This document shows positions 14,688 through 56,331 of a stretch of DNA of 64,000 bases, piece by piece (position 1 is the first letter of the stretch; every line of letters begins with the position of its first letter). The notes under the pieces are model-generated. The model did no database searches and was not told where the DNA came from. It saw only the letters and a list, made by a program, of their open reading frames with translations. The DNA is from Pseudomonadota bacterium. GTDB taxonomy: Bacteria > Pseudomonadota > Alphaproteobacteria > Dongiales > Dongiaceae. The stretch spans positions 1 through 64,000 of the forward strand of contig JACPDN010000010.1 in NCBI GenBank assembly GCA_016183985.1, in the 5' to 3' direction. The translations under genes and the position numbers were made by a program.

Positions 14688-14700
14688 ATGGTGGGTGTGA

Positions 14701-17050: not shown

Positions 17051-17062
17051 GATATTCCGTCC

Positions 17063-38385: not shown

Positions 38386-39413
38386 TTCTCGGCCCCCGCC
38401 CCCAAGCGAATTCTGGGATCCAGCAAGGCCAGCATCACATCGGAGATGAAGATGCCGATGACGGTGAGGAAGGCCATGAACATGAGGAACGAACCGGCGA
38501 GATACATGTCCTGCGAGCGCAAGGCGGAGAGCAGCATCGGTCCCGTGATGGGCAGCGACATGACCACCGAAACGATGACCGAGCCGGAAATGAGCTCGGG
38601 CAGCAGCGACCCGATATCAGCGATGAAGGGGTTGAGCGAGATACGCAGCGGATAGCGTAGCAGCAACTTCAAAGGCGGCAGGCCCTTGGCCCGGCCAGTC
38701 GTGACATATTGCTTGTTGAGCTCGTCCAAGAGATTGGCGCGCAGGCGCCGGATCATGCCGGCGGTTCCCGGCAGGCCGATCACCAGGACCGGAATCCACA
38801 TATGCTCGAATACGCTTGCGATCTTGGCCAGCGACCAGGGCTGTCCGATATAAGCCGCATCCATCATGCCGCCGATGGAGGTGCCGAACCAGATATTGGC
38901 AAAGTAGAGCAGCACCAGCGCAATCAGGAAGCTGGGCGTTGCGAGGCCAATATAGCCAAGGAAGGTGAAGACGTAGTCGAAGATCGAATATTGATGCGTC
39001 GCGGAATAGACGGCGATCGGGAAGGACACGATCCAGACGAAGAGAATCGAGGCCAAAGACACGATGACGGTCAGCATCAGCCGGTCGCCAACGACTTCCG
39101 ACACCGGCAGATTGTGTTCGAAGGAATAGCCGAGATCGCCAAAGAGAAGCCCGCCGCTCTTATGCTCCAAACCTTCCCAGCGGCCGAACATCCAGTGCAC
39201 GTATTGCACATACATCGGCTCGTCGAGGCCATAGGTCTTGCGCAGGAAATCCATCTTGTCCTGGTCCATGTTCTCGCCGCGCGACTGCATCTCGGCCATC
39301 ATGGTTTCCAGGAAGTCGCCGGGCGGGGCCTGGATGATGGCAAAGACCAGCATGCTGATGACGAGCAGCGTCGGGACCATGACCAGCACGCGCTGAATGA
39401 GATAGCGAAGCAT
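38382..39413 (-). CDS. Peptide-type ABC permease (OppB/DppB-like)
   Basis: The 343-residue permease begins MLRYLIQRVLVMVPTLLVIS, the typical OppB N-terminus. LGYSFEHNLPVSEVVGDRL is the conserved loop before helix 2, and the EAA region is TTGRAKGLPPLKLLLRYPLR. It is slightly longer than E. coli OppB (306) owing to the extracytoplasmic loop around residues 35-85. It lies 13 nt after the binding-protein gene and pairs with the downstream permease. Confidence 0.93.
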   Translation of the reverse strand: MLRYLIQRVLVMVPTLLVISMLVFAIIQAPPGDFLETMMAEMQSRGENMDQDKMDFLRKTYGLDEPMYVQYVHWMFGRWEGLEHKSGGLLFGDLGYSFEHNLPVSEVVGDRLMLTVIVSLASILFVWIVSFPIAVYSATHQYSIFDYVFTFLGYIGLATPSFLIALVLLYFANIWFGTSIGGMMDAAYIGQPWSLAKIASVFEHMWIPVLVIGLPGTAGMIRRLRANLLDELNKQYVTTGRAKGLPPLKLLLRYPLRISLNPFIADIGSLLPELISGSVIVSVVMSLPITGPMLLSALRSQDMYLAGSFLMFMAFLTVIGIFISDVMLALLDPRIRLGAGAEK

Positions 39414-39426
39414 AAGTGCCGGTTTC

Positions 39427-41361
39427 CTATTGCAGCCGGTTTTCGACGGGGCTCAGCTCCTTGGGGTTCTCTTCCCAGAAGCTGTCCGGCTTGTAGAGGC
39501 CGAAATGTGCTCCCGGCTCCCAGGACCAGATGCCCTTGGCCGGAACGTTGTGGAGGCCCGTGGCGACGATCACGGGCTGGGGAATGTTGGCGACGGTGCC
39601 AATAGTGAAGACTTGCTCGGACCAGAGTTGCAGAATTTCGTTCCAAATTCCGGCGCGGGCTTCCGTGCTGGTCGATTCACGCCAGGCTCTCAGCAAGGCG
39701 GCAAGCTTCTGTGCTTCCGGCAAGTCGATCTCCGAGCCGTTCATGCCACCGGTTTCGATATACTGGCCCCATTTGGGCCACATCAGCTGCTGCTGGGTCG
39801 AGGGGGCAAATTCCTGCGGGCTCATATCGGCCGTCGGCAAGCCGTTATCGACACCGAAAAAGACCGACATGATGCTGTCACCGGCGAAAATGCGGTCGCG
39901 GAACACCTCGCGTTGCGACGGCTTCACGAACATATCGAGGCCCAACTCGCGCCAGCTGTCCTTGATGAGTTCGAGGACGTCGGATTCCTCGGTCGATTCA
40001 CCGGCCGTGTCGACGATGATCGTCATGCGCCGCCCATCGGGCAATGTGCGGAAGCCTTCCTCATCGCGATTGGTGAGGCCGATTTCATCGAGCAGGCGAT
40101 TGGCGGTCGAGACGTCGTAGCTGGCCCAGGCCGACTGGTATTGCGACTTGTAGAGCGGCGACAGGGCCTGGATCGTATTCGCGCTCTCCTTGCCAAGACC
40201 GTAATAGATCGCCTGGTTGATCTCGTGCCGATCGATGCCGAGCGAAAGGGCGCGGCGGAACCGTACGTCGCGGTTGATCGCGCGCCAGGCTTCGTCATTG
40301 CAATTGAGATTGGGGTAGAGCGCAAAATTGGAGCCGCGGCTGTCATCCCACAGGTAAAGCCGGAAGCGCCCGTTCTTTTCCGCCTGCTTCAGGAAGGTGT
40401 AATTGTCGAAGCGGATATAGCGCGCCTGCAGATCGACTTCGCCCGCACCGGCCTTGGCTGGAATGAGTTTGCTTTCGGCGACGTCGAAAACCACCTGATC
40501 GAGATAGGGGAGCTGCTGCCCCTTGGTATCGACCCGGTAATAAAAGGGATTGCGCACAAAGACCAGACGATCCGCTGGCGGCTTCACGCGCAAGACCCAG
40601 GGATCGAGGGTGGGGAGTTTCGGGTTGTCATTGCGATATTGATTGCCGCGCCGGTTGAGAAGCGCCGCCCAGCTCGGCTGACCGCTATCTTTCACGGCTT
40701 CCTCAAGCTCGGCCGCGTCGGCGTATTTCTGATGGAATTTCTTCAGATATTTCGAGGGCGCATAGATATAAAGCGGGCCAGCCGCCGCCAGGGCCGGCAG
40801 GAAGTCGGTGTTGGGCTTCGACCAGCTGTAGCGCACCGTCGTATCGTCAATGATCTCGACCTTGGGTTTTTCGCCATCGACCAGCAGAATGCGCGGCGGG
40901 CCGGCCGGCATGAGGTCAGCATTACTGGCAACGTCCTCCCACCAGAAACGGAAGTCCTCGCTGGTAAAGGCTTTGCCGTTGGACCATTTGTGCCCTTTCC
41001 TGAGATGGAAGGTGAAGATGCGGCCTTCCTCAACGTCGTAGCTTTCCAGGAGGTCGGGCACGATCTTGTAATTGCGGTCATAGCCGACAAGGCGGGCATA
41101 GGAATAGGCCACCAGGATGCGGCTGTCCTTCGGGCTCGCCATCAGCATGCGCATCTCGCCGCCCTGACGACCCAGCTCATCCACGGTGGCGACAGCCGGA
41201 TTTTCGGGCAGTCTCTCGGCGACCGGCGGCAAATCGCCCTTGGCCTCGTCATCGGCAAAATAGGCGGGGCTTACATAGCTCCCCACCTCGGCTGCAAAGG
41301 CAAACGGGGCGCTGAGCGTCAACAGGGCCGCGAGGCCGGCCTTTACGAGGATCTTGTTCAT
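39427..41361 (-). CDS. Peptide-type periplasmic binding protein (SBP_bac_5)
   Basis: The 644-residue protein has a Sec signal (ILVKAGLAALLTLSAPFAFA) and the SBP_bac_5 fold: LVGYDRNYKIVPDLLESYDV, FTFHLRKGHKWSNGKAFTSE and VRFRRALSLGIDRHEINQAI. Its size puts it with the larger alphaproteobacterial members (YejA/MoaA-like) that bind peptides or opine-type compounds. ATG 41361 overlaps the ATPase stop by 4 nt and follows GGAG 9 nt upstream. The ligand is unknown. Confidence 0.92.
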   Translation of the reverse strand: MNKILVKAGLAALLTLSAPFAFAAEVGSYVSPAYFADDEAKGDLPPVAERLPENPAVATVDELGRQGGEMRMLMASPKDSRILVAYSYARLVGYDRNYKIVPDLLESYDVEEGRIFTFHLRKGHKWSNGKAFTSEDFRFWWEDVASNADLMPAGPPRILLVDGEKPKVEIIDDTTVRYSWSKPNTDFLPALAAAGPLYIYAPSKYLKKFHQKYADAAELEEAVKDSGQPSWAALLNRRGNQYRNDNPKLPTLDPWVLRVKPPADRLVFVRNPFYYRVDTKGQQLPYLDQVVFDVAESKLIPAKAGAGEVDLQARYIRFDNYTFLKQAEKNGRFRLYLWDDSRGSNFALYPNLNCNDEAWRAINRDVRFRRALSLGIDRHEINQAIYYGLGKESANTIQALSPLYKSQYQSAWASYDVSTANRLLDEIGLTNRDEEGFRTLPDGRRMTIIVDTAGESTEESDVLELIKDSWRELGLDMFVKPSQREVFRDRIFAGDSIMSVFFGVDNGLPTADMSPQEFAPSTQQQLMWPKWGQYIETGGMNGSEIDLPEAQKLAALLRAWRESTSTEARAGIWNEILQLWSEQVFTIGTVANIPQPVIVATGLHNVPAKGIWSWEPGAHFGLYKPDSFWEENPKELSPVENRLQ

Positions 41362-43262
41362 GCCGCGAAGCTCCGGATCGAAAGCGCGGCGCGTACCCAA
41401 TGCCCGTTGCCGATATCGACCAGGGTCGGCTGGTTGTCGGCGTCGATCGTGAAAGGCGTCGGCCAAGCCGACGGGACCGAGGTCTTGCCTTCCATGACCC
41501 GGTTGAAATCGAGCGGGTTGTCGAGCGACGGGTTGGGCACGGCAGCGAGCAATGCCTTGGTATAGGGATGCACCGGGTTGCGGAACAGCTCGGCGGTCGG
41601 CGCCACTTCCACAACGCGGCCAGCACACATCACCATGATGCGGTCGGCGACATAGTCGACCACCGCGAGATTGTGCGAGATGAAAATATAGGTGAGGCCC
41701 AACTTGGCCTTCAGATCCTTGAGCAGGTTCAGAATCTGCGCCTGGATCGAAACGTCGAGCGCCGAAACGGGTTCGTCGCAGATGATGAGATCCGGCCGCA
41801 AAGCCAATGCCCGGGCGATGCCGATGCGTTGACGCTGGCCACCCGAGAAGCTGTGCGGATAGCGCCTGAGATGGCGGATATCGAGGCCCACCAGAGCCAT
41901 CAATTCCTTCACCATTTCCTTGCGCGTTTCCGGCGTCCCGACATTGTGGATTACCAGCGGCTCGCTGATGATATCGAACACCGTCATGCGGGGATTGAGC
42001 GAGCCGATCGGATCCTGGAACACGAATTGCACGCGCTTGCGGTACTCGGCAAGGTCGGCGGCATTCATGTGCCGCACGTCAAGTGCGCGGCCGCGATCGT
42101 TGAAACGGATCTCACCTCCATCGGGCGAGAGCGCTTTCATGATGATTTTGGAAAGCGTGGTCTTGCCGCAGCCAGATTCACCGACGAGCCCCAGGCATTC
42201 GCCGCGCTGGACGTCGAAGCTGACATCGGAAACGGCCATCACCGATTTCTGCGCCGGCCCTGAGAAGAAGCCCGTCTTGCGCGTGGTGAAGCCCTTCGAG
42301 ACGTTGCTGACACTGAGCAGCGGCCCAGCTTCGTCAGCGTTCTGCGGCCAGGGCTTCTTTTCGGCAAAGAGCGGACCGGCCTCGCTCTTGATCTCGCGGA
42401 TCGGCACCAGGCGCTCATTCCCTTCCATGCCGAAGCGCGGCACGGCATGAAGCAGCGCTTTGAGATAAGGATGTTCCGGGGCATCGAAGATGTCTTCGAC
42501 CGTCCCTGATTCCATCACCTCGCCCTGATACATCACGACCACTTCGTCAGCGATGTTGGCGACGACACCAAGGTCATGGGTGATCATCAGCATGGCCATG
42601 CCGAGCTCGGATTGGAGATCGGCCATCAATTTGAGGATCTGTGCCTGGATGGTGACGTCGAGTGCGGTTGTCGGTTCGTCGGCGATGAGCAAGGCCGGCT
42701 TGCAGACCAGGGCCATGGCGATCATCGCGCGCTGGCGCAGGCCGCCCGACAATTCGAAGGGATAGGTCTTCAAGGCGCGTTCAGGATCGGGGAAGCCGAC
42801 CGCCCGCAACATCGCGGCGACGCGCTCGCGGCCTTCGGCATCTGACATCTTGGAATGAAGGTGCAGCGCCTCGCAGATCTGATGCCCGATGGTGTGGACG
42901 GGCGAGAGCGAGGTCATCGGCTCCTGGAAGATGATCGAGATGGCGCCACCGCGGATGGCGCGCATCTCCGGCCCATCGCGGTCAAGCTTGGCGATATCGA
43001 CAATGCCGCCCTTGGCACCCCAATCGCCGCCACTGCCCGCCCGCCGGTCGAACAGCATCTCGCCCGAGCGGATGGTGGCCGATTTCGGTAACAGGCCCAT
43101 GACAGCTTGTGCGCAAACGGATTTCCCTGAACCGGATTCGCCGACCAGGGCCACGGTCTTTCCGGCAGGCACGCGGAAACTGGCGCCTCGCACGGCATGG
43201 ACGGCACCGCCCTCAAGGTTGAAATCGACGACCAGGTTATGGACGCTGAGCAAATCGGTCAT
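41358..43262 (-). CDS. Fused peptide-type ABC ATPase (DppD-DppF-like)
   Basis: The 634-residue protein contains two complete ATPase domains, in order DppD-like then DppF-like. The first has Walker A GESGSGKS, an intact signature region (LSGGLRQR) and Walker [13 protein letters not shown]. The second has [17 protein letters not shown] and [12 protein letters not shown]. Each ends with an oligopeptide-transporter C-terminal extension ([24 protein letters not shown]). Such fusions serve one dedicated importer. It overlaps the bPH-like gene upstream by 4 nt and the binding protein downstream by 4 nt. Confidence 0.94.
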
Positions 43263-43787: not shown

Positions 43788-44606
43788 CTAAAGCGGCGGC
43801 CACAGCTCTCGAGGATCCTGAAATACATCCAGCCCCCCTCGCTGGGCGAGCCAATCTTGCAGTTTATCGAGAAATCGCCAAGTGGCGGTATCGTGAACGA
43901 GGTGATGGGTAAGGAGGCCGGTGGGGATTTTTGGGTCGACACTGCCCCGACGCCGCGCCGCCAGATGTGCTGCGAGCCGCCCCAGGGCCGCCGCCTCGCC
44001 GACAAAACCCCGGCTACCGCGCCAGTCAATAACATCGATCTGGGTGTTAATTTCCCGGAAGCGGGGGAATTGGGTGGCGGGTGACGCCTTGCCCGCATAG
44101 GGCAGCTCATCGAACCGGCTCACCCCCCGAAAGCCGAGGCGCGGCAACAAAGCCAGAGCCGGCTCGCCGATCCGGTTCCAGGGCGGGGTGAGGACCGGGA
44201 GGACGCAGGACCCCAATGTCTCGCGCAGGAAATTGCCAGCCACGGTCAGCGCCAGTTCGATCTCGCTCGACGGGCGTGTCGGCGGGAATTCACTTTTCTT
44301 GGCGCCCTCGGCGGCATGGTTAAGATGTCCCACGCCATGCTGCAGCACAGCAGCCCCCGGCCAGTCTGCCAGATAAGCGCCAAGCCGCGGCTGCAGCGGC
44401 CGGTCCAAGGCCATCGGGATAACGGCAAGAGCCACCGGCACACGGGCGCTGCGGCGCAATTCCTCAAGCGATGCGGTCACGTCGACCGCGTCATCGTCGC
44501 GCCACCACAGGGTCGGACGCTGCGGCAGCCCTTGCCACAGATCCCATTCGCGGGCGAGGCCGTCCCAATCAGCCACCGATCTTTCAGGCCCCGGTCTTTC
44601 AGGCAT
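43788..44606 (-). CDS. Polysaccharide-deacetylase-like protein
   Basis: The 272-residue protein fits the NodB/polysaccharide deacetylase fold. An Asp cluster RDDDAVD lies near residue 40, HGVGHLNHA matches the metal-binding HxxxH, and TPPWNRIGEP is the catalytic-pocket loop. HHLVHD near the C-terminus could supply the late His. There is no signal peptide, so it would act in the cytoplasm unless secreted otherwise. ATG 44606 overlaps the upstream glycosyltransferase by 8 nt. In context it may trim an N-acetyl group from a glycan intermediate. Confidence 0.8.
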   Translation of the reverse strand: MPERPGPERSVADWDGLAREWDLWQGLPQRPTLWWRDDDAVDVTASLEELRRSARVPVALAVIPMALDRPLQPRLGAYLADWPGAAVLQHGVGHLNHAAEGAKKSEFPPTRPSSEIELALTVAGNFLRETLGSCVLPVLTPPWNRIGEPALALLPRLGFRGVSRFDELPYAGKASPATQFPRFREINTQIDVIDWRGSRGFVGEAAALGRLAAHLAARRRGSVDPKIPTGLLTHHLVHDTATWRFLDKLQDWLAQRGGLDVFQDPRELWPPL

Positions 44607-45765
44607 GGGCGGCAGGTTTCTTGGCCAGGGCGGCGAGAATGATGTCGGCCGAATGCTGTGCGCCGTTGAAATCGAGATCGACCGGCAGCGCGCCCGTTCG
44701 CGCCCGGCGCGTGAGGGTCGCGGCGAGAAGGGCCGGGTCGAGATCCTCACCATCCAGCATGTCGAGGGCGCCGCGCTCGGCCAGCAAGGCCGCGCGCAGG
44801 GCCTGCTCGCTCTCCTGGCCCTCGGCAAAGGGGATGATCACCGATGGCGTGCGCAGGGCCAGCAATTCCATTACCGTATTGTAGCCGCCTTGGCTCAATG
44901 AAACATGGCAGGCTGCCAGCAAGTCGGTGAAATCGGGCCGGAAGCGATCGACGACAATGCCAGGGTCGATCCGTGCCGCCTCTTCGAGGATGGCAAAATC
45001 GGCTGCCGGCAGATTGCGCCCGGCAACGAAGCGCCAGCGCCGCTCCTTCAAGGTGGAAAGACGGCGCGCGGCCAGGGCCGCCTTGAAAAGCGGGCCGCCC
45101 ACCGCGCCACCACCCGCCGAAACCAGCACGTCGCCATTGCTGCGATCGGCAACCGGCGCCACGGCCAGCTTCTCGACGACATAGCCGGTGTAATTGAGCT
45201 TATCGGCGATCGATGGCGCCCGCGGGAAGGTACGCTCGAACGGCACCAGCCGCGGATCGCCATGCACAAGGACCAAGTCGAAATAGCGCCGTACCAGATC
45301 CGCCGCCTCCAGCACCCGGTCGTCGCGGCCCTTATCGACCAGAATGTCGCGGACCGAGCTTGCCACCAGCAGGCCGGCATTCTGCGCCCAGTAAAGCAGC
45401 GGCAGCAGCTCGAAACGGAACTGGCGGCGGCCGAAGGGATACATTTCGATGACCAGCGCCTGCGGCTTGAAGGCGGCCGTTTCCTTCAGCAGCAATTCGC
45501 GCCGCCGGTCCTTCCATTCACTGTCGATGACCCGGCCGCTCTCATCGAGCAAGGCGGAGAAGACCGAATCCGCCGCGAGGCATGGCGGCAGTTGCAGAAC
45601 CTGGGCCTTGCCGAAGGCGACGTCGGCCACCTTGACGCCGCCCGAGAGCACCAGCACCTCGGCACCCGCATCGGCCAGCGCCCGCGCTAGCGCCGCTGCC
45701 CGGCGCAGATGACCGATGCCGAGCAGATGCTGGACATAAAGAGCGATACGCGGTGCTTCAGCCAT
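44599..45765 (-). CDS. GT28/MurG-like glycosyltransferase 1
   Basis: The 388-residue GT-B protein opens with YVQHLLGIGHLRRAAALAR, a glycine/His-rich first loop as in MurG-like enzymes. The nucleotide-binding domain has VSAGGGAVGG and SLSQGGYNTVMELLALRTPS. It is homologous to the product at 48917-50134, which starts with the same GLGHLRR-type loop. Start 45765 overlaps the phosphatase gene by 8 nt. Donor and acceptor are unknown; the cluster suggests a glycan or glycolipid. Confidence 0.87.
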   Translation of the reverse strand: MAEAPRIALYVQHLLGIGHLRRAAALARALADAGAEVLVLSGGVKVADVAFGKAQVLQLPPCLAADSVFSALLDESGRVIDSEWKDRRRELLLKETAAFKPQALVIEMYPFGRRQFRFELLPLLYWAQNAGLLVASSVRDILVDKGRDDRVLEAADLVRRYFDLVLVHGDPRLVPFERTFPRAPSIADKLNYTGYVVEKLAVAPVADRSNGDVLVSAGGGAVGGPLFKAALAARRLSTLKERRWRFVAGRNLPAADFAILEEAARIDPGIVVDRFRPDFTDLLAACHVSLSQGGYNTVMELLALRTPSVIIPFAEGQESEQALRAALLAERGALDMLDGEDLDPALLAATLTRRARTGALPVDLDFNGAQHSADIILAALAKKPAAHA

Positions 45766-46357
45766 GTTGCCCCAGGTCGATATTGAGCTCAGCCACATCC
45801 GGCCGGCCGTCGCTTCCCAGATGAAAGAGATGCGCGCGACCGTCCCTCAGCTTGGTGGGTGGCTTTTCCGTCATCTGCCATCCCGTGGCGAGCGCGTAAA
45901 GAGCCCTTTGCACCGCTTTGTGGCTGATCAGCACGACGTCCCGCCCATCTGCGGCGAGGCGCGAAAGCAAGGGCAGCAGCCGCTCCTGCACCTCGCGCGG
46001 GCTTTCGCCATGGGGGGCGCGGAAATCGAGCCCCATCGCCTCGCGGCTCTCGGCATCGGACCCCGGCGCATCACGCAGGGCGGCAAGGCTCTGCCCCTCC
46101 CAATCGCCGAAGCTCATCTCGCGCAAGGCCGGCTCGATTTCGGCTGACACATTGGGGAAAAGAATGGCCGCCGTTTCGCGCGCCCGGATCAAGGGGCTGG
46201 TCAGCACGCGCCATCCCTGCCACGCCGCCGGCACGGTCCAGCTGGCGGCAATGATGCGCCCCTCCGCGCCCAGGCCGATATCGGTGCGGCCCTGCAGGCG
46301 TTTCTCGGCATTCCACTGCGTCGGCGCATGGCGGATGACGGCGCAATGGATGCTCAC
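45758..46357 (-). CDS. Histidine phosphatase (phosphoglycerate-mutase-like)
   Basis: The 199-residue protein has the phospho-histidine motif IRHAPTQWN at residues 8-16, then LTSPLIRARETA, the catalytic Glu region LREMSFGDWEGQSL and the second His in VLISHKAVQRAL. This is the cobalamin-type/alpha-ribazole-phosphatase-like subgroup in style. Its place between glycosyltransferase genes (4- and 8-nt overlaps) suggests it dephosphorylates a sugar phosphate or pathway intermediate. That assignment is inference. Confidence 0.9.
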   Translation of the reverse strand: MSIHCAVIRHAPTQWNAEKRLQGRTDIGLGAEGRIIAASWTVPAAWQGWRVLTSPLIRARETAAILFPNVSAEIEPALREMSFGDWEGQSLAALRDAPGSDAESREAMGLDFRAPHGESPREVQERLLPLLSRLAADGRDVVLISHKAVQRALYALATGWQMTEKPPTKLRDGRAHLFHLGSDGRPDVAELNIDLGQHG

Positions 46358-47505
46358 GCAATCACCTTTTCGCCCGTCATCTTTTCAATGGTCTTCTTGA
46401 GCGTCGCGGCCGCTGCCGCAATATCGTGGAATTTGCGTGCATGCGCGGCGGTGACCAATCGGACCGGCGCCAATTCCCGCTCAAGCGCGAAGTCGACGTC
46501 GGCGGCGAAGGCGGCGGTATCGCCAGGCGCCGACAGCCAGCCGGTCTCGCCATCCGCGATCATCGCCGGTACGCCGCCCGATGCCCCGGCAATGACCGGG
46601 GTACCGCAGGCCTGCGCCTCCAGAAGCGCCATGCCGAAGGCCTCGTTGATCGCCGGCCAGACGAAGAGATCGGCGCTGGCATATATTTCTGGTAGTTCCG
46701 ACGCAGGTTTCTGCCCCAGCCAGGCGACGCGCTTGGCGATCGGTGCGAACGCCGCCTCGACCTCGGGTCGCGCCGGCCCCTCACCCACGACCAGCAGCTG
46801 ATAGGCCCGCGTCACGTGGCGCAGCGCCTCGGCCAATGCCTTGTAAGAGGCAAGCTTGTCGCCCTTCCTCATCATGGCGACGGCAAGCAGCCAGGGCATG
46901 TCGGGGTCGAGCCGGTAATGCTGCGACAGCCTCAAACGCCCCAGCGCCCGGTCCGGCCCCCGCAGATGGTGGCCGAGGAACGCATCGATATCGAGAAAGG
47001 GCGGCAGGTCGACCAGCTTCTTGGCGGCAACAATGCCATGCAGGCATTCCTTATCCGCCGGGTTGAGGCAGAAAATGGCACGCGCCTGGCGGATCGCCGC
47101 CTCCGCCGCCGCGTGCGAAAAAGCAAAAGGACCGCCGGCCCGCTTGGGTGCGTGGCTCGCCTCAGCCACGATATAAGGAATGTCGAGCGCCGCAGCGACG
47201 CGGGGGCCGATCCAATCCACCGCCTTGTAATAGAGATGATAGGTGAACCAGGCTCTGGGCCGCTCCCCCTTGGGAAGTTTCCGGTACTTGGCGATGAGCT
47301 TGTCGGCGAGGCCGTGGCCCTTGGCGGCGAACTTCTTCTGCTCCGCCTCGCTGTCGCCGGAAAGGCGCGCGCGGAACCGGCTGGCCAGGACCGGCGTGAT
47401 GCCGCCGCGCTTCAAGGCCGCCAGCAATAGCCGCCCCACGGTGCGGTCACCGGACGGATCCGGATGATCGGGTGCCTTCAACGGCGCATAAAAGGCGATT
47501 TTCAT
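46354..47505 (-). CDS. Family-4 glycosyltransferase 1
   Basis: The 383-residue protein has the GT4 pattern. The N-terminal domain reads KIAFYAPLKAPDHPDPSGDR. The C-terminal domain has LLVVGEGPARPEVEAA, then the EX7E motif region PAINEAFGMALLEAQACGTP and GETGWLSAPGDTAAFA. It overlaps the phosphatase gene by 4 nt. The most similar neighbour type is the GT4 protein at 47554-48768, which shares the motifs but not overall sequence, so it is not a recent duplicate. Confidence 0.92.
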   Translation of the reverse strand: MKIAFYAPLKAPDHPDPSGDRTVGRLLLAALKRGGITPVLASRFRARLSGDSEAEQKKFAAKGHGLADKLIAKYRKLPKGERPRAWFTYHLYYKAVDWIGPRVAAALDIPYIVAEASHAPKRAGGPFAFSHAAAEAAIRQARAIFCLNPADKECLHGIVAAKKLVDLPPFLDIDAFLGHHLRGPDRALGRLRLSQHYRLDPDMPWLLAVAMMRKGDKLASYKALAEALRHVTRAYQLLVVGEGPARPEVEAAFAPIAKRVAWLGQKPASELPEIYASADLFVWPAINEAFGMALLEAQACGTPVIAGASGGVPAMIADGETGWLSAPGDTAAFAADVDFALERELAPVRLVTAAHARKFHDIAAAAATLKKTIEKMTGEKVIA

Positions 47506-47553: not shown

Positions 47554-48768
47554 CTAGTCGAGATCCGCTTTGAAACGTCTTTCGAGATCGTTGATCCCGG
47601 CATCCATGGCGAAATGGGCGTGGAGGCGGCCAAAGCCGGCATCGGCCAGTCTCTGCCGCTGCGTCGGATTATGGATGAGTGATTGTACCGCGGCGGCAAG
47701 GGCCGCGGCGTCTTCCGGCGGCACGAGGAGGCCGGTTTCACCGTCCTTGATGAGCTCGGGGATGCCGGAGATGTTGGTGGCGATGCAGGCGAGGCGCTGG
47801 CTTTGCGCTTCCATCAGCACGTTGGGGAGGCCGTCGCGGTCACCATCGGCGGCGATTTGCGCGGCGAGCACGAAGAGATCCGACCGGCGATAGGCCGCAA
47901 GCACCTGTTCCTGGGGCAGGGCACCCAGCCATTGGATGCGTGCGGTCAGCCCGAGTTTCTCGGCCTGAGCCTTCAGCGCGCCGTCGAGCGGACCGCCGCC
48001 GATATGGGTGAGGCGCCAATTGCTGTCCTTGGGCAGCTTCGCCAGAGCTTCGAGCAGGGTCGGATATCCCTTCTTCTCCACCAATCGGCCGACCGACAGG
48101 ATCTCGGCCGGGCCGGCCGTCGCCATGCGTGCCGGCGGCTCGGGGAAGCGGCGGAAATCGAGGCCGTGATAGACCAGTGCCACCTTCGCCTTGTCGGCGA
48201 CGAGGGTCTCGAGATGGGCATGGCCGCTGGCGGTACAGGTCACCAGCCAGTCGAGGCTCATAAGCTTTTCCCGCTTGTCCCAATCAGGCGAGGTCCAAAT
48301 GTCCTTGGCATGAGCAGAGCAAGACCAGGGCGTTCCCGCCATCAGATGGGCGTAATAGGCAACGGCTGCCGGCGTGTGCATGAAATGGGCATGGAGGCGC
48401 AGCGTGTCCGCCGGCATCTCCGCCACCAGCACGCAGGCCTGGCCGAAGCGACGCCCGCGATTGGGGGTGGGATCGCGCTGGAGATCCTTCAGCCATTGCC
48501 GGAGGGCGCGCCCGAAACCGGGCTGTTTCATCGCCCGCACAAGCCCGCGAAGAACCCGTCCCGGCTCCTGATAGAGATATTCCGGCAGGTAGGTGACCTT
48601 GGCCTTGATCTCGTCATGAACCGGATGGCGGTATTTGTCGGTGGGGAAGCGCAGGCTCCATATCTCAAGCGGAATCCCGCGTTGCTCCAACGCTTTGATC
48701 TCTTGCGCGATGAAGGTTTCGGAAAGGCGCGGATAGCCCTTCAACAGGAAAAGGATTTTGCCGGTCAT
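47554..48768 (-). CDS. Family-4 glycosyltransferase 2
   Basis: The 404-residue protein begins KILFLLKGYPRLSETFIAQE, the opening typical of GT4 enzymes of exopolysaccharide pathways (LSETFI). The nucleotide-sugar domain has LSVGRLVEKKGYPTLLEALA, then GLPNVLMEAQSQRLACIATN and GETGLLVPPEDAAALAAA. It lies 48 nt before the next GT4 gene and is preceded by a REP-like element. It probably adds a sugar to a surface glycan; the linkage is unknown. Confidence 0.92.
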   Translation of the reverse strand: MTGKILFLLKGYPRLSETFIAQEIKALEQRGIPLEIWSLRFPTDKYRHPVHDEIKAKVTYLPEYLYQEPGRVLRGLVRAMKQPGFGRALRQWLKDLQRDPTPNRGRRFGQACVLVAEMPADTLRLHAHFMHTPAAVAYYAHLMAGTPWSCSAHAKDIWTSPDWDKREKLMSLDWLVTCTASGHAHLETLVADKAKVALVYHGLDFRRFPEPPARMATAGPAEILSVGRLVEKKGYPTLLEALAKLPKDSNWRLTHIGGGPLDGALKAQAEKLGLTARIQWLGALPQEQVLAAYRRSDLFVLAAQIAADGDRDGLPNVLMEAQSQRLACIATNISGIPELIKDGETGLLVPPEDAAALAAAVQSLIHNPTQRQRLADAGFGRLHAHFAMDAGINDLERRFKADLD

Positions 48769-48916: not shown

Positions 48917-50134
48917 TCAACGCTTGCGTTGCGCGAGACGGAGGGAGGCCGGGCGGCGGCCGCGTTCCAGCGCCTGTTGGGCGAGGCGATTGACGTTGTT
49001 GAGGCCGTCGAGCAGACCCGGCACGACCACTTCGGACGGCAAGGATTGCTGCGGCAATTGCCGCAAGGCCGTCGCCATCTTGCGCCAGTCGCGCACACCG
49101 TCATCTTCCAGCATGGCGGCAAGGCCCAGTTCTTCGGCCTTGGCGGCGCGGATGTACTGTTCCATGCGCGGGCGCGTACGCGGCACAATGAGGGCGCGCT
49201 TATCGAAGGAGACGATCTCGCAGAAGGTGTTGTAGCCGCCCATGGCGACGACGCCGATGGCGCGCGACATGACATGCTCCATCTGCGCATCGAAGGTGAT
49301 CGCCTCGACCTTGTCGAGCTTGCCAGCGCGGGTGAGAAACTCCGCTTGGCGATCCGAATGCATGAACGGCCCCAGCACCAGCAGGGCCGGATAGGGAAGG
49401 CGCTTGTCGTTTTCGTAGGCGCGCAAGACCCAGTCGATCACGTCCTCGCCATCGCCGCCGCCGCCGGTGGTGACCAGCAGATAGGGCGCATCGATCTTCT
49501 GCAGCGGCATCGGCGCACCCGGTCCTTGCGGCAGCGAGCGATGCAGATAGCCGGTATAGATCATCTTGCGCTGGACCGATTTCGGGAGGTCGATCCCTTC
49601 CAGCGGTTCGCAGATCTGCGGCAGGCCATAGATCCAGATCTGGTCGTAGAGGTCGCGCAAGGCGGGCAGCACGTTCTTCCGGCGCCATTCCGGCACCAGG
49701 GCTGCGGGCTCATCCATGATATCGCGAAGGCCCAAGACCAGATGGGTGCCGCGTTCCTTGAGCATTTCGAGGGTCTCGGTCACCTCGCCGCGCAGGCCCA
49801 GGGGCTCCTTGTCGACGATGAAGATATCGGGATCGAAGATTTCGGCAGTGTGCTTGATGATGGAGGAGCGCAGAGCCAGCGTCTCCTCGGTATCGATCAG
49901 AAGCGAGAGGGAGGTATAATCCCCCGAACGCAGCTTTATGACGCCCGGGATGCGGACGAAGTCGACACGAGCCCGGAAATTGAAGCTGCCGATGATGGGC
50001 GAGCCGGTCAGGATGATGACCGACATGTCCTTGTTCTGCTCGACCAGCCAATGGGCTATGGTCTGGCAGCGGCGCAAATGGCCGAGGCCGAACGTGTCGT
50101 GTGAATAAATAAGGACGCGGGCGCCCCTGGTCAT
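48917..50134 (-). CDS. GT28/MurG-like glycosyltransferase 2
   Basis: The 405-residue protein starts LIYSHDTFGLGHLRRCQTIA, the MurG-like first loop. It continues with VTTGGGGDGEDVIDW and VVAMGGYNTFCEIVSFDKRA in the nucleotide-binding domain. It is homologous to the product at 44599-45765. I chose ATG 50134, with GGAAG 5 nt upstream; ATG 50146 is the alternative. It heads the long leftward run and is divergent from the degenerate ABC gene. Confidence 0.87.
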   Translation of the reverse strand: MTRGARVLIYSHDTFGLGHLRRCQTIAHWLVEQNKDMSVIILTGSPIIGSFNFRARVDFVRIPGVIKLRSGDYTSLSLLIDTEETLALRSSIIKHTAEIFDPDIFIVDKEPLGLRGEVTETLEMLKERGTHLVLGLRDIMDEPAALVPEWRRKNVLPALRDLYDQIWIYGLPQICEPLEGIDLPKSVQRKMIYTGYLHRSLPQGPGAPMPLQKIDAPYLLVTTGGGGDGEDVIDWVLRAYENDKRLPYPALLVLGPFMHSDRQAEFLTRAGKLDKVEAITFDAQMEHVMSRAIGVVAMGGYNTFCEIVSFDKRALIVPRTRPRMEQYIRAAKAEELGLAAMLEDDGVRDWRKMATALRQLPQQSLPSEVVVPGLLDGLNNVNRLAQQALERGRRPASLRLAQRKR

Positions 50135-50280
50135 GGCGTCTTCCATTTGCACGCGGCCCGATCCCCCCGAACGCTGCGCACCCAGTTTTCGAGCGCCAAC
50201 CCGCTCGACGGCGCGAGTATGGCACAGGAGAAATGCCGGTCGAAAGTCAAAGTTTGGTGACTGCGCGCTAATGTCCGCAC

Positions 50281-50371: not shown

Positions 50372-53092
50372 ATGGAGCCAAAACTATTCAAATATATCTG
50401 GCGCCATTCCTGGCGCGACCAGATCCCCATCCTGATCGTCGTCGTCATCGCGCAGGTGATGTATCTCGTCTCGCTCGATTTGCCCAAGCGAATTGTGAAC
50501 GACGCCATTCAGGGCAAGGCTTTCCAAGGCAAGGCCCTCGCCGACTTCCTGAAATTCACTTTGCCCCTGCCGGATTTCCTGGGCGGGTCGGTGCAGCTGT
50601 TCTCCGGCTTTCAGCTCGATCAGCTGAGCTACCTCCTCGCCCTTTGCTTTTCCTATCTCTTCTTCGTCGTCCTCAATGGCTGGCTGAAGCAGACGGTCAA
50701 TACCGAGAAGGGGCGCCTCGGCGAGCGCATGTTGCGGCGCCTGCGCTTCGAGCTCTTTGACCGGGTACTGCAATTCCCCTTGCTGCAGTTCCGCAAGGTG
50801 AAGCAGGCCGAAATCGCCACCATGATCAAGGATGAGGTGGAGCCTCTGGGCGGCTTCATCGGCGATGCCTTCATCACGCCGGCTTATCTTGGCGGTCTCG
50901 CCGCCACAGCCCTCCTCTTCATTTTCATGCAGAACATGTCGATGGGTTTTGTGACCATCGGCATGCTGGCGGTGCAGATCGTCGTCATCCCGAAGCTGCG
51001 CGTGAAGATCCTGATGCTGGGCAAGCAGCGCCAGATCACGGCGCGCCAGCTTGCCGGCCGCATCGCTGAAAGCGTCGATGGCGCAATCGAAATCCACGCA
51101 AACGACACGTCGAATTACGAGCGCGCCGACATCGTCCATCGTTTGGGCCGCATCTTCCAGATCCGCTTCGAGCTTTATCAACGGAAGTTTCTGGTCAAAT
51201 ACATCAACAACATGCTCGCCCAGACGACGCCCTTCCTCTACTTCGTCATCGGCGGCTATTACGCGCTCAAAGGCCAGTTCGATGTGGGCACGCTGCTTGC
51301 CGTCATCAGCGCCTATAAGGATCTGCCATCGCCGATCAAGGAATTGATCGACTGGGACCAGCAGCGCCAGGACGTGCAGATCAAATACGACCAGGTGATC
51401 GAGCAATTCACGCCGCCGGGCATGCTGGATCCGCGGCTGCAGCATATCGATAACGAGAATGAGATCGCGCCTGCATCGGTCAGGTTGGAGCGTGTTACCT
51501 ATCACGACGAAAGTGGCGCCGCACTGGCCGAAGACATTTCATTGGAGATTGCGCCCGGCGAACATTTGGCCATCGTCGGCGGCAATAACAGCGGCAAGGA
51601 GGCAGTCGCCGCCTTGATGGCACGGCTGGTGCGCCCGTTCAGCGGCAATCTGCGCTATGGCGAGCGGGATCTCTTGGACCTTCCGGAATCCGTCACCGGT
51701 CGCCGCTTCGCCTATCTCGGCGACGAGACCTATCTGTTGCCGGTTTCGCTGGAAGAAAACCTGCTTTACAGCCTGAAACACCGGCCTTTGCGCGAAGCCG
51801 TCTATGAAGGTGCCGATCTTTCGGCCTTTGAGCGCCGGCTTTACGAAACCAAGCGTGCCGGCAGCCCCACCTTCGACTATTTCGCGGATTGGATCGATTA
51901 TCAGGGGGCCGGTGTTGCCGATCGCGCGGCCCTTGAAGAACGCGTGCGGGCATTGCTGATCACGGTGGAGTTCGAGGAAGATGTCTATCAGTTCGGCCTG
52001 CGCGGCCGCATCGAATCCACCAACCGCAACGGTCTTGCCGAAGAGTTCCTGAAAGCGCGCGGCGGCGTTCGTGCCCGTCTCGATGAGCCGCAATTTGCAA
52101 GCCTCGTCGAACCTTTCGACCCGGAGCATTACAACCGCAATATGACGGTGGCGGAAAACATCCTGTTCGGTACGGCGCTCGATGCGACCTTCGCGCCGGA
52201 ATCGCTTGCCACCAACGCCCATCTTTCCAGCGTGCTGAATGCGGCGGAGGTTACCGGCGACCTCATCGCGCTCGGCCAGCAGATCGCCTCGACCATGGTG
52301 GAGCTCTTCGCCGATCTGCCGGCGGGGCATCCCTTCTTCGAGCAGTTCAGCTTCATTTCGGCCGAGGATCTGCCGCGCTTCCAGCAATTGGTGACGCGCC
52401 TGCAACGCACGGGGCTTGATGCCGCGACGGCTGAGGACAAGCGGCGCCTCATCGCCCTGACCTTCCCCTATATCGAAGCGCGGCACCGCCTGGGGCTGAT
52501 TGACGATACGTTCGAGGATAAGCTCCTGAAGGCGCGCAAGCAGTTCCGCGAGCTGCTGCCGAAGCCCCAGGCCCAGGCCATCGAGTTTTACGATCCCGCC
52601 CGCTACAACGCCGCCGCGACCGTGCAGGACAACATCCTGTTCGGCCGTCTGGTTTACGGCCAGGCGCAGGCGGCGCAGAAGGTCGGCGCGGTCCTTTCGG
52701 AGGTGATCGACAGCCTGTCGCTGCGGCCCCAGGTCATTGCCGTGGGCCTCACCTTCAATGTGGGGGCGGCGGGCAAGAAATTGTCCTTTGCCCAACGCCA
52801 GAAGGCCGGGTTGATCCGCGCCTTGCTCAAACGGCCGCAGCTTGTCATTCTCAACAATACGTTGTCGGCTTTCGACGAGGCCAGCCAGCGGCGCCTTCTT
52901 ACCGGGATTCGGGCGGATCTAAAGGGTGCCGCCTTGGTTTTCATTACTCATACGGCCGCCTTGGCGCGCAATTTCGATCGCATCGTGGTGATGCAAAGCG
53001 GGCGTATCGTCGAGACGGGCAGACCTGCGGAACTCGACCGGGTCAATTCGAAATTCCAGGTGCTGTTGGGTGCGCCTGAGCCCGTGGGGTAA
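50372..53092 (+). CDS. ABC exporter-like protein with degenerate, expanded nucleotide-binding domain
   Basis: The 906-residue protein has a six-helix exporter-type membrane domain (about residues 15-340) and an NBD expanded by several hundred residues. Walker A reads GGNNSGKE (about 403-410), with Glu in place of Ser/Thr. The signature is LSFAQRQK instead of LSGGQ, and Walker B ends VILNN instead of ILDE; the switch His is kept in FITHT. Three segments resemble the ENILFG region that normally follows the Q-loop: LEENLLYSL (about 460), TVAENILFG (about 592) and TVQDNILFG (about 750). The start is ATG 50372; GTG 50339 is an alternative. It probably binds but cannot normally hydrolyse ATP. It sits divergent from a glycan gene cluster. 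Confidence 0.85.
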   Translation: MEPKLFKYIWRHSWRDQIPILIVVVIAQVMYLVSLDLPKRIVNDAIQGKAFQGKALADFLKFTLPLPDFLGGSVQLFSGFQLDQLSYLLALCFSYLFFVVLNGWLKQTVNTEKGRLGERMLRRLRFELFDRVLQFPLLQFRKVKQAEIATMIKDEVEPLGGFIGDAFITPAYLGGLAATALLFIFMQNMSMGFVTIGMLAVQIVVIPKLRVKILMLGKQRQITARQLAGRIAESVDGAIEIHANDTSNYERADIVHRLGRIFQIRFELYQRKFLVKYINNMLAQTTPFLYFVIGGYYALKGQFDVGTLLAVISAYKDLPSPIKELIDWDQQRQDVQIKYDQVIEQFTPPGMLDPRLQHIDNENEIAPASVRLERVTYHDESGAALAEDISLEIAPGEHLAIVGGNNSGKEAVAALMARLVRPFSGNLRYGERDLLDLPESVTGRRFAYLGDETYLLPVSLEENLLYSLKHRPLREAVYEGADLSAFERRLYETKRAGSPTFDYFADWIDYQGAGVADRAALEERVRALLITVEFEEDVYQFGLRGRIESTNRNGLAEEFLKARGGVRARLDEPQFASLVEPFDPEHYNRNMTVAENILFGTALDATFAPESLATNAHLSSVLNAAEVTGDLIALGQQIASTMVELFADLPAGHPFFEQFSFISAEDLPRFQQLVTRLQRTGLDAATAEDKRRLIALTFPYIEARHRLGLIDDTFEDKLLKARKQFRELLPKPQAQAIEFYDPARYNAAATVQDNILFGRLVYGQAQAAQKVGAVLSEVIDSLSLRPQVIAVGLTFNVGAAGKKLSFAQRQKAGLIRALLKRPQLVILNNTLSAFDEASQRRLLTGIRADLKGAALVFITHTAALARNFDRIVVMQSGRIVETGRPAELDRVNSKFQVLLGAPEPVG

Positions 53093-53164
53093 GGCCCTTG
53101 CGAGCGGGCCGATCCTTAACGGGGTCGGCAGGAGATGGTTTAAGTTGCTATCGGGATGGGTGCC

Positions 53165-53617
53165 ATGAGTATTCAGGAAGACGTCGAAGCCCTAAAGCGC
53201 ATTCCGCTGTTTGCCAAGGTCGAGCCGGCCAAGCTGAAGCTGATGGCCTTCGCCAGCGAACGCGCGCAGTACCAGCCGGGCGATCTGCTGTTCCATCAGG
53301 GTGACACGGCGGATGCAGCCTTCATCATCCTGTCGGGTTCCGCCGACATTCTGGTCGAGACTGAAAACGGGCCGCTGCGGGTCGCCGATGTCGGTCCGGG
53401 TGCCTTCGTGGGTGAGATCGGCATTTTGATGGACGTGCCCCGCACCGCCACAATCCGCGCCACCGAAAAGATGACGGTGCTGAAGATCACAAAGGAACTT
53501 TTCTTCCGCATGGTTACCGATTTTCCATCGATCGGCATAGAGGTGATGCGAGTGCTTGCCCAGCGCATCGAACATATGAACGTCCAGCTGCGCGAAGCGG
53601 TGGCGGCGAAAAAGTGA
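53165..53617 (+). CDS. Cyclic-nucleotide-binding (CRP-like effector domain) protein
   Basis: The 150-residue protein is a lone cNMP-binding domain. YQPGDLLFHQGDTADAAFII is the opening strand pair, and the phosphate-binding cassette FVGEIGILMDVPRTATIRA has the conserved Glu and Arg. There is no helix-turn-helix, so it is not a transcription factor by itself. It starts 72 nt after the degenerate ABC gene and is probably co-transcribed. It may confer cAMP or cGMP control on that transporter or on a partner. ATG 53165 is preferred to 53156 by the GGATGGG spacing. Confidence 0.88.
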   Translation: MSIQEDVEALKRIPLFAKVEPAKLKLMAFASERAQYQPGDLLFHQGDTADAAFIILSGSADILVETENGPLRVADVGPGAFVGEIGILMDVPRTATIRATEKMTVLKITKELFFRMVTDFPSIGIEVMRVLAQRIEHMNVQLREAVAAKK

Positions 53618-53651: not shown

Positions 53652-54146
53652 ATGAGCCGCCTCGATAGTTTCATCCGCCGCCTCGAAGCCCAGCGCAGTT
53701 GCCTGGGCAACGCCGCACAGCGGACGCAAAAGCTTGCCGGCGTCGTGCTGGAACTGGGTCTTGGCAACGGCCGCACTTTCGACCATCTGCGCGAAATCTG
53801 CGCCGGGCGCGAGATCTATGTTTTCGACCGGCAGGTGGCAGCGCATCCTGATTGCATCCCGGCACCCAACCGGATGTTCCTCGGTGATTTCACGGAAACA
53901 TTGAAGGAAGCCCGCGCGCAGCTCGGCGATGCCGCGGCCTGCCTCATCCATGTCGATCTCGGCAGCGGCGACACCGCCGCGAGCCTCGCTTTGGCCAGGT
54001 GCATCGCGCCGGATATCGCTGCCCTAATGGCGCCGCATGCCATCGTGGTGAGCGACCAGCCGATCGATGAGCCGAGCCTCAAACCCCTGCCATTGCCCGA
54101 AGGCGTGCGGCCTGGGCGATATTTCATGGGTAAGAAGCTGGCGTGA
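53652..54146 (+). CDS. Small class I SAM-dependent methyltransferase-like protein
   Basis: The 164-residue protein has motif I VLELGLGNGRTFDHL, the acidic second strand IYVFDRQVA and ACLIHVDLGSGD as motif IV. These are characteristic of a class I SAM methyltransferase, but it is short for a full enzyme and lacks an obvious C-terminal substrate domain. It starts 34 nt after the cNMP-binding protein gene. The substrate is unknown; a glycan or lipid intermediate is plausible from context. Confidence 0.75.
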   Translation: MSRLDSFIRRLEAQRSCLGNAAQRTQKLAGVVLELGLGNGRTFDHLREICAGREIYVFDRQVAAHPDCIPAPNRMFLGDFTETLKEARAQLGDAAACLIHVDLGSGDTAASLALARCIAPDIAALMAPHAIVVSDQPIDEPSLKPLPLPEGVRPGRYFMGKKLA

Positions 54147-54240: not shown

Positions 54241-56331
54241 ATGCGCTTGAAGCCTTTTATCGCCGCCCTCGCCGGCCTTCTTTTCCTCAGCCATGCGGCT
54301 GCCGCCAAGGTCAACGACGACCGCGTGACCCTGCCGCGCGAAAAGGGCACGCCCATGGGGACGGTGGGGATGGTGCTGCATCTGGGTGCCGCGGGCTCGG
54401 CGCTGGGTACGGGCTTCCTGGTTTCGCCCTGTCATGTGCTCACTGCCGCTCATGTGGTGTCCGAACCGGAAGGCATTTCGGCGGACCAGGTGCTGCTGTT
54501 CTTCATCGGCAGCGGCGATCTGGGGCCGGAATATTACGAGGCCAATTCCTTTGCCGAGTTGAGCCCGGCCCGACCGGTCGTCTGGGGCGAGTCCCGTGAC
54601 CTCCATAAAGGCTCGACCGCAGACCGGCGCGAAGCCTGGCAGAAGGCCGGGTGGGATGATTGGGCACTGCTGAAGCTCGATAAATGCCTTGGCGACGAAG
54701 GTTACGGCTATCTGAAGCTGCAGCCCATGGCGACCACGGATTTTACGCGTCAAGGCAACACGCTGCCGATCACGTCGATCGGCCTGCCCGCCGATCACGA
54801 CAATGAGAAGCTGACCATCGACCCCGCTTGCACGCTGTTCGGCCAGATCGACAGCACCGGCTGGCAGCATGATTGCACCAGCATGCCCGGAAATTCCGGC
54901 GGTCCCATTCTGGCCGCCAGGCCCGATGCGGGTGAAAAATGGCCTCGGGTAATGGGCATTACCGTGATCTCGACCAGTGAGCATCCCGAAGAACTGAAGC
55001 CCATGATCAACGATCCGGCGGCGCCGGATTATCTCGGCAATCTGCCGACCGCCGTGCCGGTTTCCGCCTTCATCAACAAGATCGCCCCTTATCTGCCGAA
55101 AGACCCCCTGGTCTCGACCTACCTTGCCAAGCATTCGGATGCCGATCGTGGCTACAATATCGACGATCCGAAAAAGCCGATCGCCGATCTTACTGCCGCC
55201 ATCGCCAAGAAGCCGCGCTCGGCGCTGCTCCTCACCATGCGCGGCTCGTGGCTCGAAGTGGCAAAGGATGAATCAGCCGCCCTTATCGACTATTCGGCAG
55301 CCCTCCGCGCCGACGCCAATTTCGCACCCGCCCTTTATGCCCGGGCGCAGCTGCGTGGCTATCGCGACGACAAGATGCAGGGCGACGCCAAGGCAGCGCT
55401 TGCCGATCTCGACGTGCTGATCAAGCGCTTTCCCGATGATCCCAGCCTGCGCATCACCCGTGGGGCACTCCTTTCCGGCAGCTATGACTACCGCGCAGCA
55501 CTCATCGATTATGACGCCGCTCTGAAGCTCGACCCCGATAACATCTCGGCCCGGCTGACACGCGCCAATGCCCGTGTCGAATTGGGGGATATGAAGGGCG
55601 CCAAAGCGGATTTCGACGCCGCCGTCGCCGCCCGCGACGACAACGCCTATCTGCTGGTGGAGCGGGCCAATTACCAGTTGCGTGCGGGCGATCACGCGGC
55701 TGCCTTCAAGGACATCGAGGCGGCTCTGAAGATCGAGCCGGACATGCCGACGGCGATCAACGCACGCGCCATCGTCCATCTCGATCTTGGCGAGGTGGAT
55801 AAGGCGCTGTCGGATGCCAATCTGACGGTCAGCCTGGACCGCGACCCATCGAGCGGTCACATCGCTCTGCGCGGCACCATCCATCATATCAAGGGCGACC
55901 TCAAAGCCGCGATTGCCGACTATCGCCAGGCGGAGAAACTCAACCCCACCGAGCCTTTCGATGCGTTGATGCTCTATATCGCGCTCGGCCAGGCCGACCG
56001 GATGGCGGAAGCAAAGGAAGAACTGCGCCAGTTGCTGAGGCGTTGGCCGACCACGGAATGGCCAAGCCCGCTGGCCCTGCGCCTGCTCGGCGAAAACTCG
56101 GACGCCGATCTGAAGAAGGCGGCCGAAGCCGGCACCGAAGTCCTGCGCAAATACCAGGATTTCGACTGGCATTTCTATCTCGGGGCCCAGGCAATGCTGC
56201 TGGGCGACGAGGCGAAAGCGAAGGCCTATTTCCAGCATGTCGTCGACACCGACATGCGCCAGTTCCTGGAATACAATCTTGCCCGCATCTTCCTGGAGAA
56301 GCTGGGTGGCAGCGCCTATGTCAAAGGCTGA
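54241..56331 (+). CDS. Secreted trypsin-like serine protease with TPR repeats
   Basis: The 696-residue protein has a Sec signal (FIAALAGLLFLSHAAAA). A trypsin-fold domain (about residues 35-280) has the triad His in LTAAHVV, Asp in WDDWALLKL and Ser in MPGNSGGPI. The C-terminal half (about 310-690) is a series of TPR-like helices (ALIDYDAALKLDPDNISARL, AFKDIEAALKIEPDMPTAIN). GGAAGAG is just before ATG 54241. It may process or regulate envelope proteins, with TPRs recruiting a substrate. The last gene of the + strand run; the sulfatase-like gene is convergent. Confidence 0.9.
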   Translation: MRLKPFIAALAGLLFLSHAAAAKVNDDRVTLPREKGTPMGTVGMVLHLGAAGSALGTGFLVSPCHVLTAAHVVSEPEGISADQVLLFFIGSGDLGPEYYEANSFAELSPARPVVWGESRDLHKGSTADRREAWQKAGWDDWALLKLDKCLGDEGYGYLKLQPMATTDFTRQGNTLPITSIGLPADHDNEKLTIDPACTLFGQIDSTGWQHDCTSMPGNSGGPILAARPDAGEKWPRVMGITVISTSEHPEELKPMINDPAAPDYLGNLPTAVPVSAFINKIAPYLPKDPLVSTYLAKHSDADRGYNIDDPKKPIADLTAAIAKKPRSALLLTMRGSWLEVAKDESAALIDYSAALRADANFAPALYARAQLRGYRDDKMQGDAKAALADLDVLIKRFPDDPSLRITRGALLSGSYDYRAALIDYDAALKLDPDNISARLTRANARVELGDMKGAKADFDAAVAARDDNAYLLVERANYQLRAGDHAAAFKDIEAALKIEPDMPTAINARAIVHLDLGEVDKALSDANLTVSLDRDPSSGHIALRGTIHHIKGDLKAAIADYRQAEKLNPTEPFDALMLYIALGQADRMAEAKEELRQLLRRWPTTEWPSPLALRLLGENSDADLKKAAEAGTEVLRKYQDFDWHFYLGAQAMLLGDEAKAKAYFQHVVDTDMRQFLEYNLARIFLEKLGGSAYVKG

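Follow-up and report, generated by a model that had tools for sequence, protein, structure and literature searches.

The ATPase is the defining part of an ABC transporter. In type IV exporters of the MsbA/ABCB kind, such as MsbA, TmrAB and TM287/288, a six-helix transmembrane domain (TMD) is combined with a full nucleotide-binding domain (NBD) fold, the helical arm of which normally couples to the membrane domain. CFTR and SUR, ABCC proteins that serve as a channel and a regulator, respectively, have an ABC exporter fold with degenerate nucleotide sites and are not ATP-driven pumps. The NHLM bacteriocin-type exporters (TIGR03896) are ABC transporters associated with cNMP-binding domains. In SbmA/BacA (SLiPT), the TMD fold of an ABC exporter occurs with no NBD at all, and SbmA, an ABC-type TMD without ATPase, is driven by the proton gradient (PMC13316013). 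Among heterodimeric exporters, degenerate halves are common (PMC12038006).

Here, we describe a protein that has both the six-helix TMD and the full NBD fold in common with the MsbA kind. It differs from that kind in having no catalytic motifs, in the 400 rather than approximately 104 residues that separate Walker A from the signature, in a helical subdomain that is tripled and in its cyclic-nucleotide-binding (CNB) partner protein. The gene lies at 50372–53092 on the forward (+) strand of the window, which is the whole 64,000-nucleotide stretch of DNA that was analysed. It encodes a degenerate ABC exporter of 906 amino acids, comprising a TMD followed by a pseudo-NBD with the triplicated helical subdomain. 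The open reading frame is intact and the ATG at 50372 is consistent with the conserved N-terminus of the family.

In Pfam, the protein matches PF00664 and PF00005 above cut-off and nothing else; the SbmA_BacA family, in particular, is not matched. The TMD spans residues 1–345 (50372–51406, +) and is of the exporter-type ABC_membrane family (PF00664, E 7e-13, residues 25–313). It is the best-conserved region of the family, with a mean majority-residue fraction of 0.60 over 66 non-redundant homologues. For the NBD, PF00005 covers the first part only. The best NCBIfam match is MsbA (TIGR02203), at 161 bits against a cut-off of 602, and the scores also fall below the NHLM-type cut-offs (TIGR03896, 41 against 161 bits; TIGR03796, 148 against 853).

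The AlphaFold2 model of the whole chain has a mean pLDDT of 82, which rises to approximately 90 in the NBD. The core of the modelled NBD superimposes on the ComA NBD (3vx4) over 239 of 239 residues with a Z of 28.0 and an rmsd of 1.8 Å, and the whole chain matches TmrAB, MsbA and TM287/288 with a Z of approximately 27. In the model, therefore, the fold is that of a type IV ABC exporter, with the TMD and the C-terminal NBD fold both present.

The ATP site presents a different picture. The Walker A motif, GGNNSGKE (residues 403–410; 51578–51601, +), has Glu in place of Ser/Thr; the signature is a degenerate LSFAQ (residues 804–808; 52781–52795, +); and the Walker B strand (residues 824–829; 52841–52858, +) ends in ILNN (826–829), that is, in Asn-Asn. 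These three changes, listed in an earlier note on this DNA, are confirmed in the translation and prove to be family-wide among 136 aligned homologues. The note had also named canonical Walker A, Walker B and signature motifs in homologues as a finding that would overturn its reading, and not one of the 136 is canonical at all key positions. By comparison, 13 canonical exporter NBDs sampled at ten places of the same genome all have GK(S/T), LSGG(Q/E), Asp-Glu and the switch His. The distance from Walker A to the signature is 103–104 residues in 13 of these 13, as against 400 in the window protein (the note had estimated roughly 110 and about 390); in the homologues, 400 is the mode and the range is 373–472. 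Thus, as read from the translation, the motifs of an ATP-hydrolysing exporter, namely Walker A GK(S/T), LSGGQ and the Walker B Asp with the catalytic Glu, are absent from the window protein.

The substitutions across the family follow a pattern. The residue after the Walker A Lys is Asp or Glu in 116 of 136 homologues and Ser or Thr in 5, and the Lys itself, or Arg, is retained in 129. Gly806 of the signature is found in 6/136 and Gly807 in 12/136. At the Walker B Asp828 position, Asn occurs in 104 and Asp in 16 of the 136. The catalytic Glu829, which the window protein does not have, is present in 91/136, and Glu, Asp or Gln occupies that position in 115. The switch His does survive in the window protein, as claimed earlier (H860; 52949–52951, +), but this does not hold as a family trait, with only 19 of 136 homologues retaining it and 117 missing it. 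The 136 homologues are rich in Reyranella sequences; reduced at 70% identity to 66 sequences, they show the same picture.

The Walker A Lys/Arg is often retained, as is a polar or acidic residue where the catalytic Glu would be, which suggests that many members may still bind nucleotide or even hydrolyse it slowly. In 14 of the 66 non-redundant members, the P-loop Gly or the Lys/Arg is gone (for example, SSSEAERAAF and APSEEDRRAL), and the TMD and the repeats are still conserved in the family despite this loss. Judged by these sequences, ATP binding cannot be essential family-wide. The proposal that such a protein would bind ATP without turning it over is, therefore, too specific.

The degenerate protein is found in 130 of 385 alphaproteobacterial genomes (membership being a match with an E of 1e-60 or better), nearly always as a single copy. 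Named genomes supplied a further 80 loci, among which those of Dongia are closest to the window protein (72–79% identity). No occurrence was found outside the Alphaproteobacteria in a 398-genome sample of the phylum, a sample in which the share of other classes is not shown. Relative to the nearest relative, dN/dS is 0.046 for the TMD, 0.048 for the N-terminal part of the NBD, 0.088 for the insert and 0.041–0.066 for the remainder. A pseudogene or a sequencing error is ruled out by the intact frame, by full-length homologues of 92–51% identity in many assemblies and by the dN/dS of 0.04–0.09, and decay had already been argued against in the note from the frame and the normal membrane domain. 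The sequences indicate an old family under constraint. In the literature that was searched, nothing was found on this family, on its ABC–CNB fusions or on its repeated helical subdomains.

The pseudo-NBD contains three repeat units. Unit A (approximately residues 445–570; 51704–52081, +) runs from the Q-loop strand and ENLLYS (N463) to a KAR helix (R563). Unit B (approximately residues 573–731; 52088–52564, +) runs from ENILFG (N596) to a second KAR helix (R722) and is an extra helical subdomain. Unit C (approximately residues 732–820; 52565–52831, +) contains DNILFG (N754), the degenerate signature and R816, and is the counterpart of the ordinary helical subdomain. In hhalign comparisons of family segments, unit B (553–711) matches unit C (712–860) with an E of 2.8e-16, while A matches C, and separately B, at approximately 2e-6. 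Control segments from the TMD give an E of 0.02 or worse in the same comparison, which rules out a chance likeness of the ENILFG segments.

The units can also be aligned to the profile of the canonical NBDs of the genome. Here, unit C matches from the Q-strand through Walker B (E 2.5e-22), unit A matches in the register of the Q-loop and EN(I/L) (E 6.5e-10), and unit B falls in the same register, weakly, with an E of 7.5e-4. The residues Asn463/596/754 and Arg563/722/816 are in register and, at 97–100% conservation, rank with the least variable positions in the whole chain. From their order and spacing, Arg563 and Arg722 are probably the equivalents of the ARA Arg in the signature helix.

Further support for the repeats came from modelling the insert alone (residues 476–735, without unit C). 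The six best VIA-align rows for this model are all ABC NBDs, with Z from 6.8 to 4.3, and include CFTR NBD1 (6.8), ABCC6 (6.6), MsbA (6.0), IrtAB (5.7) and ABCD4 (5.2); the best unrelated row has a Z of 3.9. These alignments run from the Q-loop to the signature helix, as in residues 415–492 of MsbA. Foldseek gave no significant match to the insert model (E above 2), and a Foldseek search with the whole chain did not, by itself, resolve the repeats. Taken alone, the fold match of the insert is moderate evidence, and it agrees with the profiles. The suggestion that part of the helical subdomain had been multiplied is thus borne out by profile similarity, by invariant residues in register and by the likeness of the isolated, modelled insert to the helical subdomains of MsbA, CFTR and ABCC6; the other outcome that the note had named as a refutation, a predicted structure lacking any repeat of the subdomain, did not occur. 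On these profiles and models, the helical subdomain is truly repeated, as three homologous units. This is an architecture for which no description was found in the literature searched.

The gene that follows on the same strand (53156–53617, +) encodes a stand-alone CNB protein of 153 amino acids, the proposed regulatory subunit (PF00027, E 7.3e-21). Its phosphate-binding cassette, GEIGILMDVPRTATIRA (53411–53461, +), has Arg in 133 of 133 sequences and Glu or Asp in 132 of 133. In known cNMP receptors, such as the CRP and PKA domains, these are the residues by which the cassette touches the ribose and the phosphate. PF00027, the cassette Glu and the invariant Arg are common to CRP/FNR-type proteins; the CNB protein differs from these in that it stands alone and is tied to an ABC exporter fold. 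Pfam finds only PF00027 in it, with no DNA-binding domain or helix-turn-helix of the kind that makes a CRP/FNR transcription factor.

The CNB gene lies directly downstream of the ABC gene, on the same strand, at 120 of 136 loci, and in 12 distant homologues it is fused to the C-terminus of the ABC protein. What is new here is this link, or fusion, of an ABC exporter fold to an otherwise stand-alone CNB protein; the earlier note mentions neither this partner nor the glycosyltransferase genes and NBD-less relatives described below. Only four loci are without it. Two of the genomes concerned (G157 and G224) have an orthologue (54–57%) elsewhere, between GT28 and methyltransferase genes, and a third genome is only 63% complete. 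As the CNB gene stays with the GT28 and methyltransferase genes where the ABC gene has moved, the CNB protein may also serve that locus. The complete genome G108 has the ABC protein but not this CNB protein, and no class III cyclase scores above cut-off there; the CNB protein is, therefore, not strictly required. Absence of the CNB gene is not significantly linked to a more canonical ATP site (p 0.14), and two such genomes have the CNB gene elsewhere.

Class III cyclases occur in 129 of the 130 genomes that bear the family, with G108 as the exception, and in 116 of the 255 others in the 385-genome sample. Genome size and phylogeny both confound this co-occurrence, which is given limited weight. 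At four loci (L120, L136, L137 and L153) cyclase genes adjoin the ABC gene, and on a Mesorhizobium plasmid (L171) they flank the cluster.

Downstream of the CNB gene lies a SAM methyltransferase of the Methyltransf_17 family (53652–54146, +; PF12692, E 1.3e-52), which is found at 88 of 136 loci. Upstream of the ABC gene, and on the opposite strand, are four glycosyltransferase genes: a divergently encoded GT28-like enzyme (48917–50239, −; PF04101) with a homologue at 103/136 loci; two GT4 enzymes (47554–48768 and 46354–47505, both −; PF00534) with homologues at 76/136 and 73/136; and a second GT28-like enzyme (44599–45798, −; PF04101) at 98/136, some of these perhaps being matches to the related GT28 at 48917. 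At least one of the four is present at 104 of 136 loci, though many contigs are short. A related layout is seen at L170, on pSymB of Sinorhizobium meliloti, and at the Mesorhizobium locus L171: glycosyltransferase genes adjoin the ABC–CNB pair and share the strand of the ABC gene, and L171 also has a polysaccharide deacetylase and a nucleotide-sugar dehydrogenase. A link of these genes to a glycan or glycolipid of the envelope is likely. An opp-type importer was rejected as a conserved partner: the flanks covered at most loci stop short of it, so that its linkage is established only in the window and in S. meliloti.

The same genome also encodes a protein of approximately 314 residues that consists of a TMD only and matches PF00664 only. 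It has homologues of 34–41% identity in several other alphaproteobacteria, and none of these NBD-less proteins is matched by SbmA_BacA in Pfam. In a tree of TMDs, it groups with the 906-residue family, apart from nine canonical exporters of the genome, with a support of 0.98. The NBD-less proteins are the closest TMD relatives found for the family, which makes an ATP-independent function plausible for this TMD lineage.

The family-wide loss of the ATP site, the purifying selection, the triplication, the linkage and fusion to a CNB protein with an intact cassette and the common neighbourhood are all computed results. The mechanism that we propose to join them is a pseudo-ATPase exporter fold, tied to a conserved glycosyltransferase cluster and gated by cNMP, and we put the chances of this at about even. 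Here, the TMD and NBD folds have been retained while the ATP site was given up, and the helical arm has been triplicated, which would have turned the NBD into a large cytoplasmic platform. The CNB protein would bind a cyclic nucleotide made by the class III cyclases and dock on the platform of repeat units. Binding of cNMP would then move the TMD between states, so that a second messenger would gate transport or conductance in place of ATP hydrolysis driving it, and ATP-driven turnover would be absent. The conserved glycosyltransferases encoded divergently from the ABC gene probably make the cargo or client, as a glycan or glycolipid of the envelope. A broader statement, made more tentatively, is that an ABC-fold family found across the class has switched from ATP to a cyclic nucleotide for both its energy and its control. 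It would then be a channel, scramblase or carrier that is opened by a ligand and independent of ATP, its NBD serving as a cNMP-reading platform, and a related lineage would have given up the NBD.

Several other readings accommodate part of these data. The substitutions at the ATP site are conserved and are not those of random decay: Lys/Arg is kept, an acidic residue follows it, Asn replaces the Walker B Asp and the catalytic Glu often remains, on an NBD core that, as modelled, still overlays that of ComA. An ATP-driven exporter with a rebuilt site could explain this if the acidic residue had moved from Walker B to Walker A, so that Mg-ATP is held and slowly hydrolysed by a homodimer, with the CNB protein acting as a modulator only. 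We regard this as unlikely, since the signature Gly-Gly is gone almost everywhere, the switch His is mostly gone, the window protein has no catalytic Glu and 14 of 66 members have no P-loop. In addition, a shift of the Mg site was rejected because the pairing of Asp/Glu410 with Asn828 is weak in the non-redundant set (odds ratio 3.0, p 0.058). The missing site could instead be supplied in trans: in a heterodimer of the TAP or TM287/288 type, the window protein would be the degenerate half and an unlinked canonical half would provide the active site, with the CNB protein regulating the pair. Canonical exporters are indeed present elsewhere in the genome, but no canonical half holds a conserved adjacent position, and the matches to a canonical exporter in the flanks are scattered, other ABC proteins. 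Known degenerate halves retain, as a minimum, those residues with which they complete the site of their partner, whereas in this family the signature and the P-loop drift as well; this is the reading to which we give the least credence.

That the closest TMD relatives found have no NBD would suit a carrier on the ABC exporter fold that is driven by protons or another gradient, in the manner of SbmA/BacA, with the pseudo-NBD and CNB protein as a regulatory clamp. Against this, both the 906-residue and the NBD-less families belong to PF00664 and not to SbmA_BacA, and no proton-coupling residues were identified; such a carrier seems distinctly improbable. The 906-residue protein also differs from SbmA/BacA in that it retains and elaborates a pseudo-NBD. 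A membrane sensor or scaffold without cargo, comparable to SUR, would report the level of cNMP to the enzymes for glycosyl or methyl transfer; a CNB protein devoid of a DNA-binding domain, the conserved glycosyltransferase neighbourhood and the large extra cytoplasmic subdomains all fit it. The TMD, however, is the best-conserved region and has invariant residues along its helices, as expected of a working membrane domain, and a sensor is slightly less probable again than the carrier. The comparison with CFTR and SUR has a further limit. Those proteins respond to ATP and retain one consensus site for it, whereas here a consensus site is found in 0 of 136 homologues and a cyclic nucleotide is the likely ligand. 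With a single NBD per chain and no consensus site, a homodimer cannot provide one consensus and one degenerate site, but a heterodimer with an unlinked canonical half might.

Gating by a cyclic nucleotide is the best single reading, at the strength given above. Beside CFTR, SUR and SbmA, a widespread family that combines an ABC fold devoid of ATPase motifs with a cNMP-binding subunit would be a natural test of what the exporter fold can do without ATP. If the proposal is true, second-messenger signalling in the Alphaproteobacteria, Sinorhizobium and Mesorhizobium included, would gain an effector in the membrane, distinct from transcription factors.

The gene for the stand-alone cyclic-nucleotide-binding (CNB) protein lies between the GT28 and Methyltransf_17 genes at loci L197 and L198 (genomes G224 and G157), with the ABC gene located elsewhere in the genome. 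Because the CNB gene keeps its place although the ABC gene is elsewhere, GT28-CNB-methyltransferase is a unit in its own right.

A dipeptide-type ABC importer comprising a double ATPase, binding protein and permeases (37186-43262, minus strand) adjoins the glycosyltransferase block in the window, and one on S. meliloti pSymB (L170:24-4700) likewise adjoins the block there. The predicted trypsin-like protease with TPR repeats in a C-terminal run (54241-56331, plus strand) is close to the ABC gene in just 6 of 136 loci. The Mesorhizobium plasmid cluster, L171, has two class III nucleotide cyclases, on either side of it, and encodes a DUF3095 protein within; the intervals for these features are 1-979, 13555-14718 and 16410-17750.

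Exporter-type ABC transmembrane domains (TMDs) of about 310-380 aa that lack any NBD form a conserved family, represented in the window's genome at G000:C13:1397412-1398353 (minus strand; loci L158/L172) and elsewhere at loci L176-L183. The nearest relatives found were the TMDs of the degenerate 906-aa ABC family.

Some members of the latter (L130, L131, L132, L133 and L134) occur as two related copies per genome, with the CNB fused. Here, the P-loop is wholly erased (0-1 of 9 canonical residues), and it is possible that two dead halves form heterodimers.

The complete, 2.0-Mb genome G108 retains the degenerate ABC gene (locus L119), and neither the stand-alone CNB protein nor a class III cyclase scoring above the cut-off is present there. 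This genome may represent a natural test of the cNMP link.
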